The notes beneath the pieces are model-generated. The model ran no database searches. It had not been told where the DNA came from and saw only the letters and a list, made by a program, of their open reading frames with translations. A stretch of DNA of 37,048 bases from NCBI RefSeq assembly GCF_900167125.1, contig NZ_FUYC01000021.1:1-37048 (forward strand), read 5' to 3'. The stretch comes from Paucidesulfovibrio gracilis DSM 16080 (GTDB lineage Bacteria > Desulfobacterota > Desulfovibrionia > Desulfovibrionales > Desulfovibrionaceae). Positions 11,723 through 15,562 of this stretch are shown piece after piece (within the stretch, counting starts at the first letter, position 1; each line of letters opens with the position of its first letter). Made by a program: the position numbers and the translations under genes.

Positions 11723-13150
11723 ATGCGACGAAATTCGTTTGAAAACATCTGCATCTTCCACATTCTCGACGGACTGCGGGACGGATTGTCCCATTTTTCC
11801 GAGGGAGCGCGTGCCGCGCTGGTGTACGCCACGTCCCCGACCGGGCCGCTGCGTATTTATGACCCGCAGGATCTGCTGCGCGGCCACGAGCCGCGGCTGC
11901 GGGATTTCTATCTGACCCCGGAAAACTGGGTTCGGGAAGTGCCGGAAGGACACGAAGTGCGGTTCCTGCCGCGGGACCATTTCGAAGGGCTGCAGATGGC
12001 GGGCGTCATCGCCTACGGAGGGCGCTCCAACGCGGTGCCGTATCAGGTCTGGTTTACGGAGGAGCACCCCACCATGTGCTGCACCGGACCCACGCGGCGC
12101 TGGTTGGAATATGCGGTCCGGCTGTTTTCCCAAAACTACGAAACCCAAAGCGTGCTGAACATCGACACGGCAGGGTACGTGCTCCAGCAATGCGCGGTCC
12201 ACGCCATTCGGGATTACATCGTGGATGAGCGGGCCGCCATGGGCAAGTGGGACACGCAGTTGCGAGTGTATCCCATTCTTGATGCCGTGATCGGCATCTC
12301 CCGTACGCAGGAAGAAGGGTTGCCCGCTTCGGGCGACATCGTGTTCGTGGAACCGAGCGAGGTGTTTCAGCTCAATTTTTTGGCGCTGTTTCCGGACCTG
12401 GACCGCCCGTTGCTGGAGAATTTCAAACGGGTGCGCAAGCTGCTGCAAAGCGTGGAAGGCTCGCGGCGCAAGCTGGTTTCCGATGGCCGCTCCATTGTGG
12501 GGATTTCCATCGGGGAAGTGCCGGATTCCAGCATCGTGGCCCGCTATCACGGTTCGCACGGTTTCCTGCTGCTCAACGGCCTGCCGGTGTGCAGCTTTTC
12601 GGGCGGCAGCTTCAGTTCCTCCAACCGGCGAGCCAACCTCGTGGAGCTGGAAGAACGGCTCTATGATTCCCATTTGAACTTATCCGAACAACATTCCTTG
12701 ATGAACATCGTCACGGCGTTGGTGGACAATTCCACGGAAAAGCGCCACGGCTGCACCCTGGTACTGGATCTTGCCGGGATTCCGGAGCGCATGTCCGGGC
12801 AGTATCTGGTGCATCCGCTGGATCTTCGTCAGTTGCGGTTTTTGGAGCTGGCCAAGGCGTTTTCCAAGGTGGACGGGGCGTTGCACATCGGCACGGACCT
12901 CAAGCTGCACGGGTTCGGCTGCCTGCTGGACGGGCACAATGTGCCGGGGGAGAACATGGCCCGCGGTGCACGATACAATTCGGCCCTGCGTTATACCGCG
13001 GAACACGAGCGGGCCATTGTGGTGGTGGTCTCTTCGGATCGGCCCGTGTCCATCATCCAAAACGGCGTGGAATTGACGGCGGCCTGTGCGCTGAAGACCT
13101 TGCGGGGCTGCCCGACGCCGCCTCTGCTGGAAGACTGGATCAACGGCTGA
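11723..13150 (+). CDS. Diadenylate-cyclase-like (DisA_N/DAC) protein with N-terminal sensor-like region
   Basis: This is a 475-residue soluble protein. The C-terminal 160 or so residues match the DAC fold that makes c-di-AMP from two ATP. They begin at LVDNSTEKRHGCTLVLDL, and the DGA motif is intact (VDGALHIG, Asp384-Gly385-Ala386). GARYNSALRY follows, then the terminal strands VVVVSSDRPVSIIQNG. The second catalytic motif, RHR in DisA/CdaA, reads Arg417-Tyr-Asn here. The upstream 300 residues are not a DisA DNA-binding or CdaA membrane domain. They resemble the sensor-like DACN-type modules described next to DAC domains in proteobacteria (recalled, not searched). The start is ATG 11723 behind GAGGGGG; the longer open frame upstream is not protein-like. 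Enzyme activity is uncertain. Confidence 0.8.
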   Translation: MRRNSFENICIFHILDGLRDGLSHFSEGARAALVYATSPTGPLRIYDPQDLLRGHEPRLRDFYLTPENWVREVPEGHEVRFLPRDHFEGLQMAGVIAYGGRSNAVPYQVWFTEEHPTMCCTGPTRRWLEYAVRLFSQNYETQSVLNIDTAGYVLQQCAVHAIRDYIVDERAAMGKWDTQLRVYPILDAVIGISRTQEEGLPASGDIVFVEPSEVFQLNFLALFPDLDRPLLENFKRVRKLLQSVEGSRRKLVSDGRSIVGISIGEVPDSSIVARYHGSHGFLLLNGLPVCSFSGGSFSSSNRRANLVELEERLYDSHLNLSEQHSLMNIVTALVDNSTEKRHGCTLVLDLAGIPERMSGQYLVHPLDLRQLRFLELAKAFSKVDGALHIGTDLKLHGFGCLLDGHNVPGENMARGARYNSALRYTAEHERAIVVVVSSDRPVSIIQNGVELTAACALKTLRGCPTPPLLEDWING

Positions 13151-13325: not shown

Positions 13326-13541
13326 CTACCACGCCCCGGCAGGATCGCCAAAGGGATTCACGCGGGCCACATCGTCTTCTCCCTCGGGCATGGCTTCCGG
13401 TGACTCCTGGCGAACCCAGCCAAATTCGCTCATAAGCTCGTCCAGACTCTTTTCTTCGGTCAATTCGAAGACAGGCACGCCGCCGGAAGAAAAAACGTCC
13501 TGGATGTCCTGTGCGGAAGAATGAATGGGTATCTGGCGCAT
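13326..13541 (-). CDS. Small acidic hypothetical protein
   Basis: This 71-residue protein is preceded by a good ribosome site (AAGGAG, six bases before the ATG). It is acidic, with stretches such as LTEEKSLDELMSEFGWV and PEGEDDVARVNPFGDP, and has no signal peptide, membrane segment or cysteine. I do not recognise a family. It converges with the DAC-domain gene and lies downstream of the chemoreceptor in the same direction, separated from it by a terminator-like hairpin. It may be a small adaptor, but nothing in the sequence shows a role. Confidence 0.65.
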   Translation of the reverse strand: MRQIPIHSSAQDIQDVFSSGGVPVFELTEEKSLDELMSEFGWVRQESPEAMPEGEDDVARVNPFGDPAGAW

Positions 13542-13735: not shown

Positions 13736-15562
13736 TCAGTTTTGGTTCAGGCGTTCGATGAGGCTCAGGAGCTGCTGGGAGAGGCGGGCCAATTCGCTGG
13801 TGGCGCTGGCCGCGTCGCCCATGCCCTGGGAGGTTTCCCCGGCAATGCGGCGGATGTCCTCCACGGCCCGGTTGATTTCGTCGCTGGTGGCGGATTGTTC
13901 CTCAGCGGCTGTGGCAATGCTGCGGACTTGATCCGAGGTCTGTTCCGCAAGGCTGACGATGTCGCTCAGCGCCCGACCGGACTGTTCCGCGAGCTGGGCG
14001 GCTCGATTGGCGGTTTTGGTGGACTGGGCCACGCTTTCCAGGTTCACGTGCGCACTTTCCTGCATGCGGGTGATGGCCTGGCCCACTTCTTTGGTGGCGT
14101 CCATGGTCTTTTCCGCCAGTTTGCGGACTTCATCGGCCACCACCGCGAATCCCCGGCCCGCTTCCCCGGCCCGTGCCGCCTCAATGGCCGCGTTCAGGGC
14201 CAGCAGGTTGGTCTGATCCGCAATGTCGGTGATCACGTTCATGATTTTGCTGATGCCCTCGGCCCGTTCGCCCAGATCAAGCATGTCCGTGCGCAACCGG
14301 TTGGAGCTGTCCGCCACCTCGCGGATGGAGGACACGGCCTTGTCCACGATTTCGTTTCCTGCGTTGGCTTCGGCGCGGGTCTGTTCTGCCACCTCGGCCG
14401 TGGTGGCGGAGTTGCGGGCCACCTCGAGCACGGTGGTGGTCATTTCCTCCATGGCGGTGGCGGTTTCCGTGGTGCGCTGGTCCTGGACCTCGGCACCGCG
14501 GCTGACCTGCACCACCTGGGCGGAAAGCTCCTCGGACGCGGCAGAGACCTGATGGGCGATTTCCTCAGCGTTGGTGGAGATGTCCCGCATGGTTTCGAGC
14601 AATCGCTTGACCTTGCGCTCCTGTTCACGTGTTTCGGCCAGGGCGGCTTCCGCGGTTTGCGCGTGTTCCTCGGCCTCCAGGCCGGTGCGTTCGGTTTCGG
14701 CCATTTTTTCCTTGAGCCGGTGCACCATGTCGGCGATGGATTCCTTCATGCCCGCCAATTCTCCGGTGAACCTGCCGGTGGGCCGTGCTTCAAGATCACC
14801 GTCCGCCACGCGTCGGGCGTAGTCTTCGATGTTCATGATGGGACGGAGAATACGGCGCTGGGCCACGAACCAGGCGAGCAGGGTAACGATGGCCAGCACC
14901 ACGAGGCTGGTGATGCCGATGATGATCTGGGAGCGGAGCGCCGCGGCCCTGGCCGAGCGAAGCGGAGTAATGACCTCGAATGCGCCGTGAATCTGGCCCT
15001 CGCGCCACCCTTCCTTAATGCCGCCGGTGGCATCGCGGCGCCCTGCCGGGTCGCCGTGGCAGTACAGGCAATCTTTGGTCAGGCGGATGGGGCGGAAATA
15101 ACGGATACGATCCGACTCTTCCACGATGTATTCGGAAAGGTTCTGGTCCTTCATGGCCTTGAGAGCGGCCATTTCCACGGCATCCGGCGCATTGTCCGGG
15201 TTGCGGGGGGCCACCTTGGGGGTGCGGACCGTGAATTCCCCGGTGGATTCGCTGTCCTGGGCGGTACGCATGGCAACCACCACGGGAACGGCTTCAATGA
15301 CCTTGTGAGCGGGGAGTTCATCAAAGGGGCGGATAAGCCCGTTTTGGATTTTGGCGGCAAATCGGTTTCGCACGGCTTCTGCCATGCTCACCACGGTCCG
15401 GCTCCGCGCAAGAACGGTTTGCTTGGCACTTTCTTCGGAGTCGTACATATTCAAAGCCACCAGAACCACGGCGATCAGCAAGGGGCCGGTCAGAGCCAGG
15501 GAGAGAACGCGCCACCGCAATCCGGAGTTGAGTCGTAACAGCTTGGAACTTTGAGCATTCAT
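13736..15562 (-). CDS. Methyl-accepting chemotaxis protein with heme-binding (Tll0287/DUF3365-like) sensor
   Basis: This 608-residue transmembrane chemoreceptor has helix 1 at about 17-38, a periplasmic domain at about 40-210, helix 2 at about 212-234, a HAMP domain, and a long cytoplasmic signalling domain. The hairpin tip is [20 protein letters not shown]. The periplasmic part contains the c-type heme motif CLYCH (Cys165, Cys168, His169) in a DUF3365/Tll0287-like context. This recalls DcrA of Desulfovibrio, a heme c chemoreceptor proposed to sense oxygen or redox state. There is no C-terminal CheR-binding pentapeptide. The ATG lies ten bases after AGAGGT. It is divergent from the hybrid kinase at 15738. 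A redox/oxygen taxis role is inferred. Confidence 0.93.

Follow-up and report, generated by a model that had tools for sequence, protein, structure and literature searches.

A DAC domain is usually read as a sign of c-di-AMP synthesis through its DGA and RHR motifs, and the passages of a review that treat these motifs ascribe importance to both in each of the three DAC classes named there (PMC7288161). The window analysed here, a stretch of 37,048 nucleotides of Paucidesulfovibrio gracilis DSM 16080, contains at positions 11723-13150 of the plus strand an open reading frame for a 475-aa protein whose C-terminal part resembles such a domain. The initial annotation, made from the letters alone, had assigned residues 384-386 to DGA and read 417-419 as Arg-Tyr-Asn, and both are present in the frame. 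The question is therefore whether a DAC-like protein with RYN in place of RHR is still a cyclase, has acquired another product, senses nucleotides or is dead. The features on which the answer depends are the following.

11723..13150 (stop included), plus strand: DACND-DACNH-DAC protein, 475 aa (open reading frame, start shared by homologues, Pfam)
11735..12238, plus strand: DACND domain, residues 5-172, probable sensor (Pfam PF21749, 222.4 bits)
12269..12571, plus strand: DACNH domain, residues 183-283 (Pfam PF21750, 91.2 bits)
12434..12439, plus strand: Arg238-Lys239 of DACNH, putative help in triphosphate binding (18/18 diverse DACNH-DAC sequences, 60/60 family sequences)
12728..13066, plus strand: DAC (DisA_N) domain, residues 336-448 (Pfam PF02457, 43.3 bits; structure matches)
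12872..12880, plus strand: DGA motif, residues 384-386 (60/60 aligned sequences)
12929..12934, plus strand: Asp403-Gly404, Pro-Leu in the genome's own CdaA as aligned by eye (60/60 family, 18/18 diverse)
12962..12991, plus strand: RGARYNSALR, residues 414-423, in place of the GTRHR region (sequence, alignments)
12971-12979, plus strand: RYN, residues 417-419 (sequence)
13031..13039, plus strand: Ser437-x-Asp439, the Ser and acidic residue of the CdaA VSEE region (60/60, 18/18)

The start at 11723 is supported by the many homologues that share it, and all three domains exceed the Pfam cut-off, which is 27 bits for each. Their order, DACND, DACNH and DAC, makes the protein a member of the DACND-DACNH-DAC architecture, and no difference was found between it and the proteins that Pfam lists under that architecture. 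The N-terminal module had been called sensor-like and uncharacterised; the former description stands, since Pfam labels both DACND and DACNH 'probable sensor' of unknown function, while the latter gives way to two named families (222 and 91 bits). Sensor domains of the DACND/DACNH type were reportedly defined by Galperin in 2023. The absence of CdaA and DisA accessory domains was borne out as well, in that neither the CdaA_N membrane domain of CdaA nor the accessory domains of DisA gave a Pfam match up to an E-value of 10. DisA carries a linker and helix-hairpin-helix domains after its DAC domain; the protein studied here ends 27 residues beyond its own.

The predicted structure of the C-terminal part is that of a DAC domain. 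In an AlphaFold2 model built on a nine-row alignment (mean pLDDT 69.3), residues 316-455 superimpose on solved CdaM and CdaA structures with Z-scores of up to 13.3 and on DisA with Z-scores of 10.2-10.9, although the model is weak at the motif itself (pLDDT 47 for residues 401-410 and 61 for residues 411-420). In a profile search against PDB sequences the DacA/CdaA matches fell short of significance (E-values from 0.47 upwards); the HMMER alignment with S. aureus DacA (E 0.47) places DGA on DGA and the family stretch RGAR[Y]N on LGTRHR. The outcomes that the initial annotation had named as refuting it, a lack of any significant DisA_N match or homologues whose 384-419 region falls outside the DAC active site, did not occur. 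For a model of DACND alone (pLDDT 50.5), comparison with GAF, PAS and roadblock-like folds gave Z-scores of 5.2-6.8, in the middling range of the tool.

Set against the known enzymes, the protein shares with CdaA/DacA, CdaM and DisA the DAC fold, DGA, the first Arg of RHR and the Ser of the VS stretch, and differs from all of them in having RYN for RHR and Ala for the preceding Thr. In B. subtilis CdaA the two motifs are D171GA and R203HR (PMC8573169), and in S. aureus DacA phosphate contact is reported for Thr207, the Thr before RHR, and ribose contact for D176/G177 (PMC6368335). Of the residues of the canonical site, the alignment shows Asp, the first Arg and Ser to be retained in the protein and Thr, His and the last Arg of GTRHR to be lost.

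Whether this departure is erratic or fixed was assessed on a family alignment of 60 near-full-length sequences, made up of the window protein and 59 relatives that share 41-81% identity with it (30 sequences in the 70% non-redundant subset). The motif R[YF]N is found in all 60, with Tyr at position 418 in 32 and Phe in 28, and residues D384, G385, A386, A416, R417, N419, S420, R423, S437 and D439 are invariant. Among nine pocket positions (384-386, 416-419, 437 and 439), chosen from the literature after the alignment had been seen, eight are invariant, as against 13 of the 104 other DAC positions. Nine weaker family matches outside the main alignment all present R[YF]N, eight with DGA and one with DGS. 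In the canonical domains sampled, the His of RHR is retained in 60 of 60 R-H domains, so that its loss in the R[YF]N proteins is a real change; the last position of RHR already varies there (R, H, A, M, L or Q), which makes the replacement of His by Tyr or Phe the larger departure. Outside the pocket, His55, Trp110 and His115 are invariant in the family and Cys119 (58/60), Cys290 (59/60) and Cys400 (57/60) nearly so, a pattern from which a metal or redox ligand may be envisaged as a possibility.

These data bear directly on the view that the RHR motif is degenerate, or the enzyme dead by drift. Comparison of the gene with its copy in another genome of the genus yielded dN of ~0.14 and dS of ~0.92 (dN/dS ~0.15), values that indicate purifying selection. 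Random decay of RHR was ruled out by the conservation of the replacement motif in the family (60/60), in its weaker members (9/9) and in a diverse alignment described below (18/18), and the motif is common to relatives in other phyla. A decaying, non-functional gene would account for nothing beyond the departure from RHR and for one weaker relative (G081, L198) whose gene is either interrupted, running over several frames, or poorly assembled, while the open frame, the low dN/dS and the 49 of 475 positions invariant across 60 sequences tell against it; we regard it as extremely improbable.

The same motif extends well beyond the family. A tblastn search that used no motif as seed identified seven plasmid relatives in four phyla, from Citrobacter, Gluconobacter, Phycisphaera and Dyadobacter together with three Priestia proteins, all of which present DACNH and R[YFL]N; a short Rhizobium match (H12) was left out of this set. 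Three further relatives (L152-L154), DACNH-DAC genes on virus-like IMG/VR contigs, one of which (L153) has TPR matches beyond its DAC part, were obtained in a scan seeded with the pattern RGAR[YF]NSA; their motif is present by construction and does not count as evidence, while their DACNH does. Pfam detected DACNH in all ten of these distant proteins. In a sample of 75 DAC-domain loci that includes repeats, scored by script (two further loci gave no match), 14 presented R[YFL]N (the ten distant proteins and four of the DACND type), 60 R-H and one RKE. Within the Pfam-scanned subset of this sample, DACNH was absent from nine R-H proteins and from the RKE protein, and among 395 genomes of the phylum DACNH was confined to 23, all of them bearing DACND. 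R[YFL]N is thus associated with DACNH in the sample. The RKE protein (L168, G137:C91:48771-49139), a 587-aa frame, combines a DAC domain that has RKE at the place of RHR with a phosphoribosyltransferase-like domain.

On a tree of 61 DAC domains, in which the canonical side is represented by CdaA and DacZ types and not by DisA, the 23 R[YFL]N rows fall on one side of a branch, across from the CdaA and DacZ types. Support for this branch is moderate (91/71; it occurs in 90% of bootstrap trees), and one R-H row (L179) adjoins the R[YFL]N rows on a very long branch; the tree program issues a warning about long branches meeting. An alignment of 18 diverse DACNH-DAC sequences, eight from the DACND family and the ten distant ones (three viral rows being motif-seeded), revealed as invariant S193, E198, R238 and K239 in DACNH and G343, D384, G385, D403, G404, R414, G415, R417, N419, R423, S437 and D439 in DAC. 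The N-terminal module appears to be the exchangeable part. Profiles of DACND and of DACNG, the module of one of the distant relatives, show no similarity (hhalign probability 0.1), which leaves a relationship between the two unsupported and suggests that different modules have been swapped on a shared DACNH-DAC core. The three-domain architecture is already catalogued in Pfam; in the accessible literature we did not find the link between DACNH and R[YFL]N described. The listings, abstract openings and passages available contained nothing on RYN-type DACs, the Pfam names DACND and DACNH led in that partial literature to one, unrelated, paper, and no biochemical assay or known product of a DACND-DACNH-DAC member was found in its accessible part.

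Among the distant relatives, the Citrobacter plasmid protein connects the family with phage defence. It is the third gene, annotated as a 581-aa 'hypothetical protein', of a DS-2-like operon that begins with a patatin phospholipase and a nucleotidyltransferase, and it scores 803.8 bits against NCBIfam DS2_3_antiphage (cut-off 630). Its Pfam domains are DACNG and DACNH, with the DAC domain below the cut-off, and its DAC motifs are DGT and GSRYNSGVRY; of 5426 E. coli genomes, 18 contain DNA 80-90% identical to its gene. In DS-2, defence is reported to be lost on mutation of either one of two DAC residues predicted to be catalytic, and 15 of 30 homologues of the DS-2 DAC to adjoin a CBASS (DefensePredictor, PMC13092281); the same paper cites Galperin 2023 (PMC10127676) for DACs near CBASS. 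The DS-2 DAC (NF053872; DACNG-DACNH-DAC) and the window protein have in common the DACNH core, DG[AT], RG[AS]RYNS and equivalents of R238-K239 and D439, a resemblance in sequence that makes the two akin. They differ in that the window protein has DACND where the DS-2 DAC has DACNG, and it reaches only 72.6 bits against NF053872 (residues 327-445), below the equivalog cut-off of 630. Unlike DS-2, moreover, the window locus has no phospholipase or CD-NTase alongside: the pair of genes ahead of the neighbouring TetR gene and the two large ones beyond the DAC gene encode, by Pfam, a glycosyltransferase, a MacB-type permease, an MCP and a hybrid kinase. Searches of PADLOC and PHROGs gave no match, nor did searches of named phages with the window protein or with the DS-2 protein, and SMODS has no match in the genome. 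Two other DACNH-DAC genes, on a Gluconobacter albidus plasmid (L112) and on Priestia megaterium pFDU301D (L114), lie near an annotated nucleotidyltransferase, the former also near a patatin-like phospholipase, in arrangements that differ from that of the Citrobacter plasmid.

The genome to which the window belongs (3.18 Mb, 53 contigs) encodes two DAC domains, that of the window protein and that of a canonical CdaA, whose motifs read DGA and GTRHRAA; this CdaA passes the NCBIfam CdaA cut-off, and a YbbR-type gene follows it. That gene, on contig C3, is the sole YbbR match of the genome; the window gene, unlike that of CdaA, has no adjoining CdaR/YbbR gene. The presence of the canonical CdaA implies that c-di-AMP is probably made in this organism independently of the window protein. 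DACND matches were obtained in 41 of the 99 genomes sampled from the family, in 24 of 395 genomes of the phylum and in none of 14 control genomes; the 24th DACND genome (G324), which accounts for the one lacking DACNH, has a DACND frame cut short. An additional DAC match with an E-value of 1e-31 or better is present in 23 of these 24 genomes. The exception (G255; one contig, 99% complete) has the DACND type as its only DAC match up to an E-value of 10, and no YbbR match was found in it. It does encode a PgpH-type 7TM-HD protein, which was rejected as support for cyclase activity because in a control such proteins occurred in three of eight genomes without a DAC match and nine of 16 with one, and the window's own genome has none.

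The gene neighborhood offers little constancy. The TetR-type gene that the initial annotation had pointed out precedes the DAC gene in the window, at a distance of 322 bp, and in the other genome of the genus; beyond the genus the association fails, with a TetR relative directly upstream in only these two of 29 loci. A TetR operon was accordingly ruled out. In four other loci a TetR relative lies ~5 kb upstream, and in one (L076) a TetR-like gene was seen by eye downstream. The nearest loci to the window belong to contigs of Desulfovibrio, Salidesulfovibrio and Pseudodesulfovibrio. Local synteny is seen among the eight closest loci (L004-L009, L011 and L012), seven of which have one cluster directly upstream and six a same-strand downstream gene for 340 aa, and this synteny is absent from the window. 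Across the phylum the 29 loci show no recurrent partner gene, as judged with a rough ORF caller for which several clusters are antisense frames. A promoter and terminator scan, to which no weight is given, found two promoter-like sites, as against 0.9 in shuffles, and two terminator-like sites, as against 2.6.

Taken together, the conservation of the site, the link with DACNH, the tree and the kinship with DS-2 favor an active sensor-cyclase with a rebuilt phosphate-binding motif. We therefore lean, with modest confidence, towards a soluble, stand-alone enzyme of an R[YFL]N branch of the DAC superfamily, presumed active from its sequence. DACND would read a signal and DACNH would pass it to the DAC domain; DACNH may also help to bind the triphosphate, because it accompanies R[YFL]N in the sample and carries the invariant Arg-Lys pair. 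The DAC domain would then condense nucleotides, with ATP as the likeliest substrate and c-di-AMP or a closely related molecule as the result, with catalysis through Asp384 of DGA, R417 (the first Arg of the old RHR) and the acidic D439, and with the stretch RG[AS]R[YF]NS..R serving for phosphate binding in place of GTRHR. Of the conceivable products c-di-AMP is the likeliest, since the fold and the Asp/Arg/Ser frame are kept, and another nucleotide is possible. Given the lack of a constant neighbour across the phylum, the protein more probably acts through a diffusible nucleotide than through a fixed partner protein, and its physiological role might lie in a stress or phage response.

The main rival to an active cyclase is a conserved pseudoenzyme, a nucleotide-gated switch whose DAC pocket binds ATP, ADP or a cyclic dinucleotide without cyclising it, which we consider less likely. 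Changing RHR to AAA is reported to cost M. tuberculosis DacA its ATP binding and/or activity (PMC3328451) and M. bovis CdaM its activity (PMC13022847), and here Thr, His and the last Arg of GTRHR are all replaced, the phosphate-contacting Thr by Ala; this counts against an active cyclase, as does the weaker family member with DGS. The canonical CdaA in the genome, and the other strong DAC in 23 of 24 DACND genomes, mean moreover that c-di-AMP synthesis need not rest on the window protein. On the other hand, the Asp and the first Arg, needless for a pure binder, are kept in 60 of 60 sequences, and these are the residues whose single Ala changes kill Leptospira CdaA (D172A and R203A, the latter the first Arg of GxRHRxA; S222A reduces activity; PMC12974146). 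The genome in which the DACND type is the only DAC match also counts for an active cyclase, and so does the kinship with DS-2: the DAC of the DS-2-like operon has the same RYN, and DS-2 needs predicted catalytic residues of its DAC, although a binding defect could produce the same loss of defence.

Somewhat less probable again is a cyclase altered in its substrate or in what it makes, which would handle another base or yield a hetero-dinucleotide or a linear molecule and whose changed motif would mark the shift. Such an enzyme would fit the uniformity of the substitution in DACNH proteins, where it comes with the further invariant D403-G404, R414 and N419, and the pairing of a DAC with a nucleotidyltransferase in DS-2; it would also explain why a genome with a canonical CdaA, in which a second c-di-AMP maker would be redundant, retains this one. 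RHR is, however, a phosphate-site motif in the papers cited above, and its change need not alter the choice of base. A broader and rather speculative proposal is that DACNH-DAC proteins form a second mechanistic class, in which Arg238-Lys239 of DACNH would complete the site in place of the RHR His and Arg, making cyclisation dependent on the sensor. The sensors (DACND, DACNG and others) would be freely swapped, and the class would provide a dedicated nucleotide signal apart from housekeeping c-di-AMP, used for phage defence in DS-2 and for other sensing in the Desulfobacterota.

The DACNH-marked branch, in which RHR has become R[YFL]N with the rest of the active site kept, spans several phyla, and the annotation 'diadenylate cyclase' that several R[YFL]N proteins already bear hinges on what they produce. 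The link between DACNH and R[YFL]N, together with the kinship to a defence component, makes the window gene worth an assay. Downstream of it, the minus strand encodes at 13736-15562 a chemoreceptor that combines HAMP and MCP domains with a Tll0287-like sensor part, in which a CxxCH is visible, followed on the same strand by a 71-aa open reading frame at 13326-13541.
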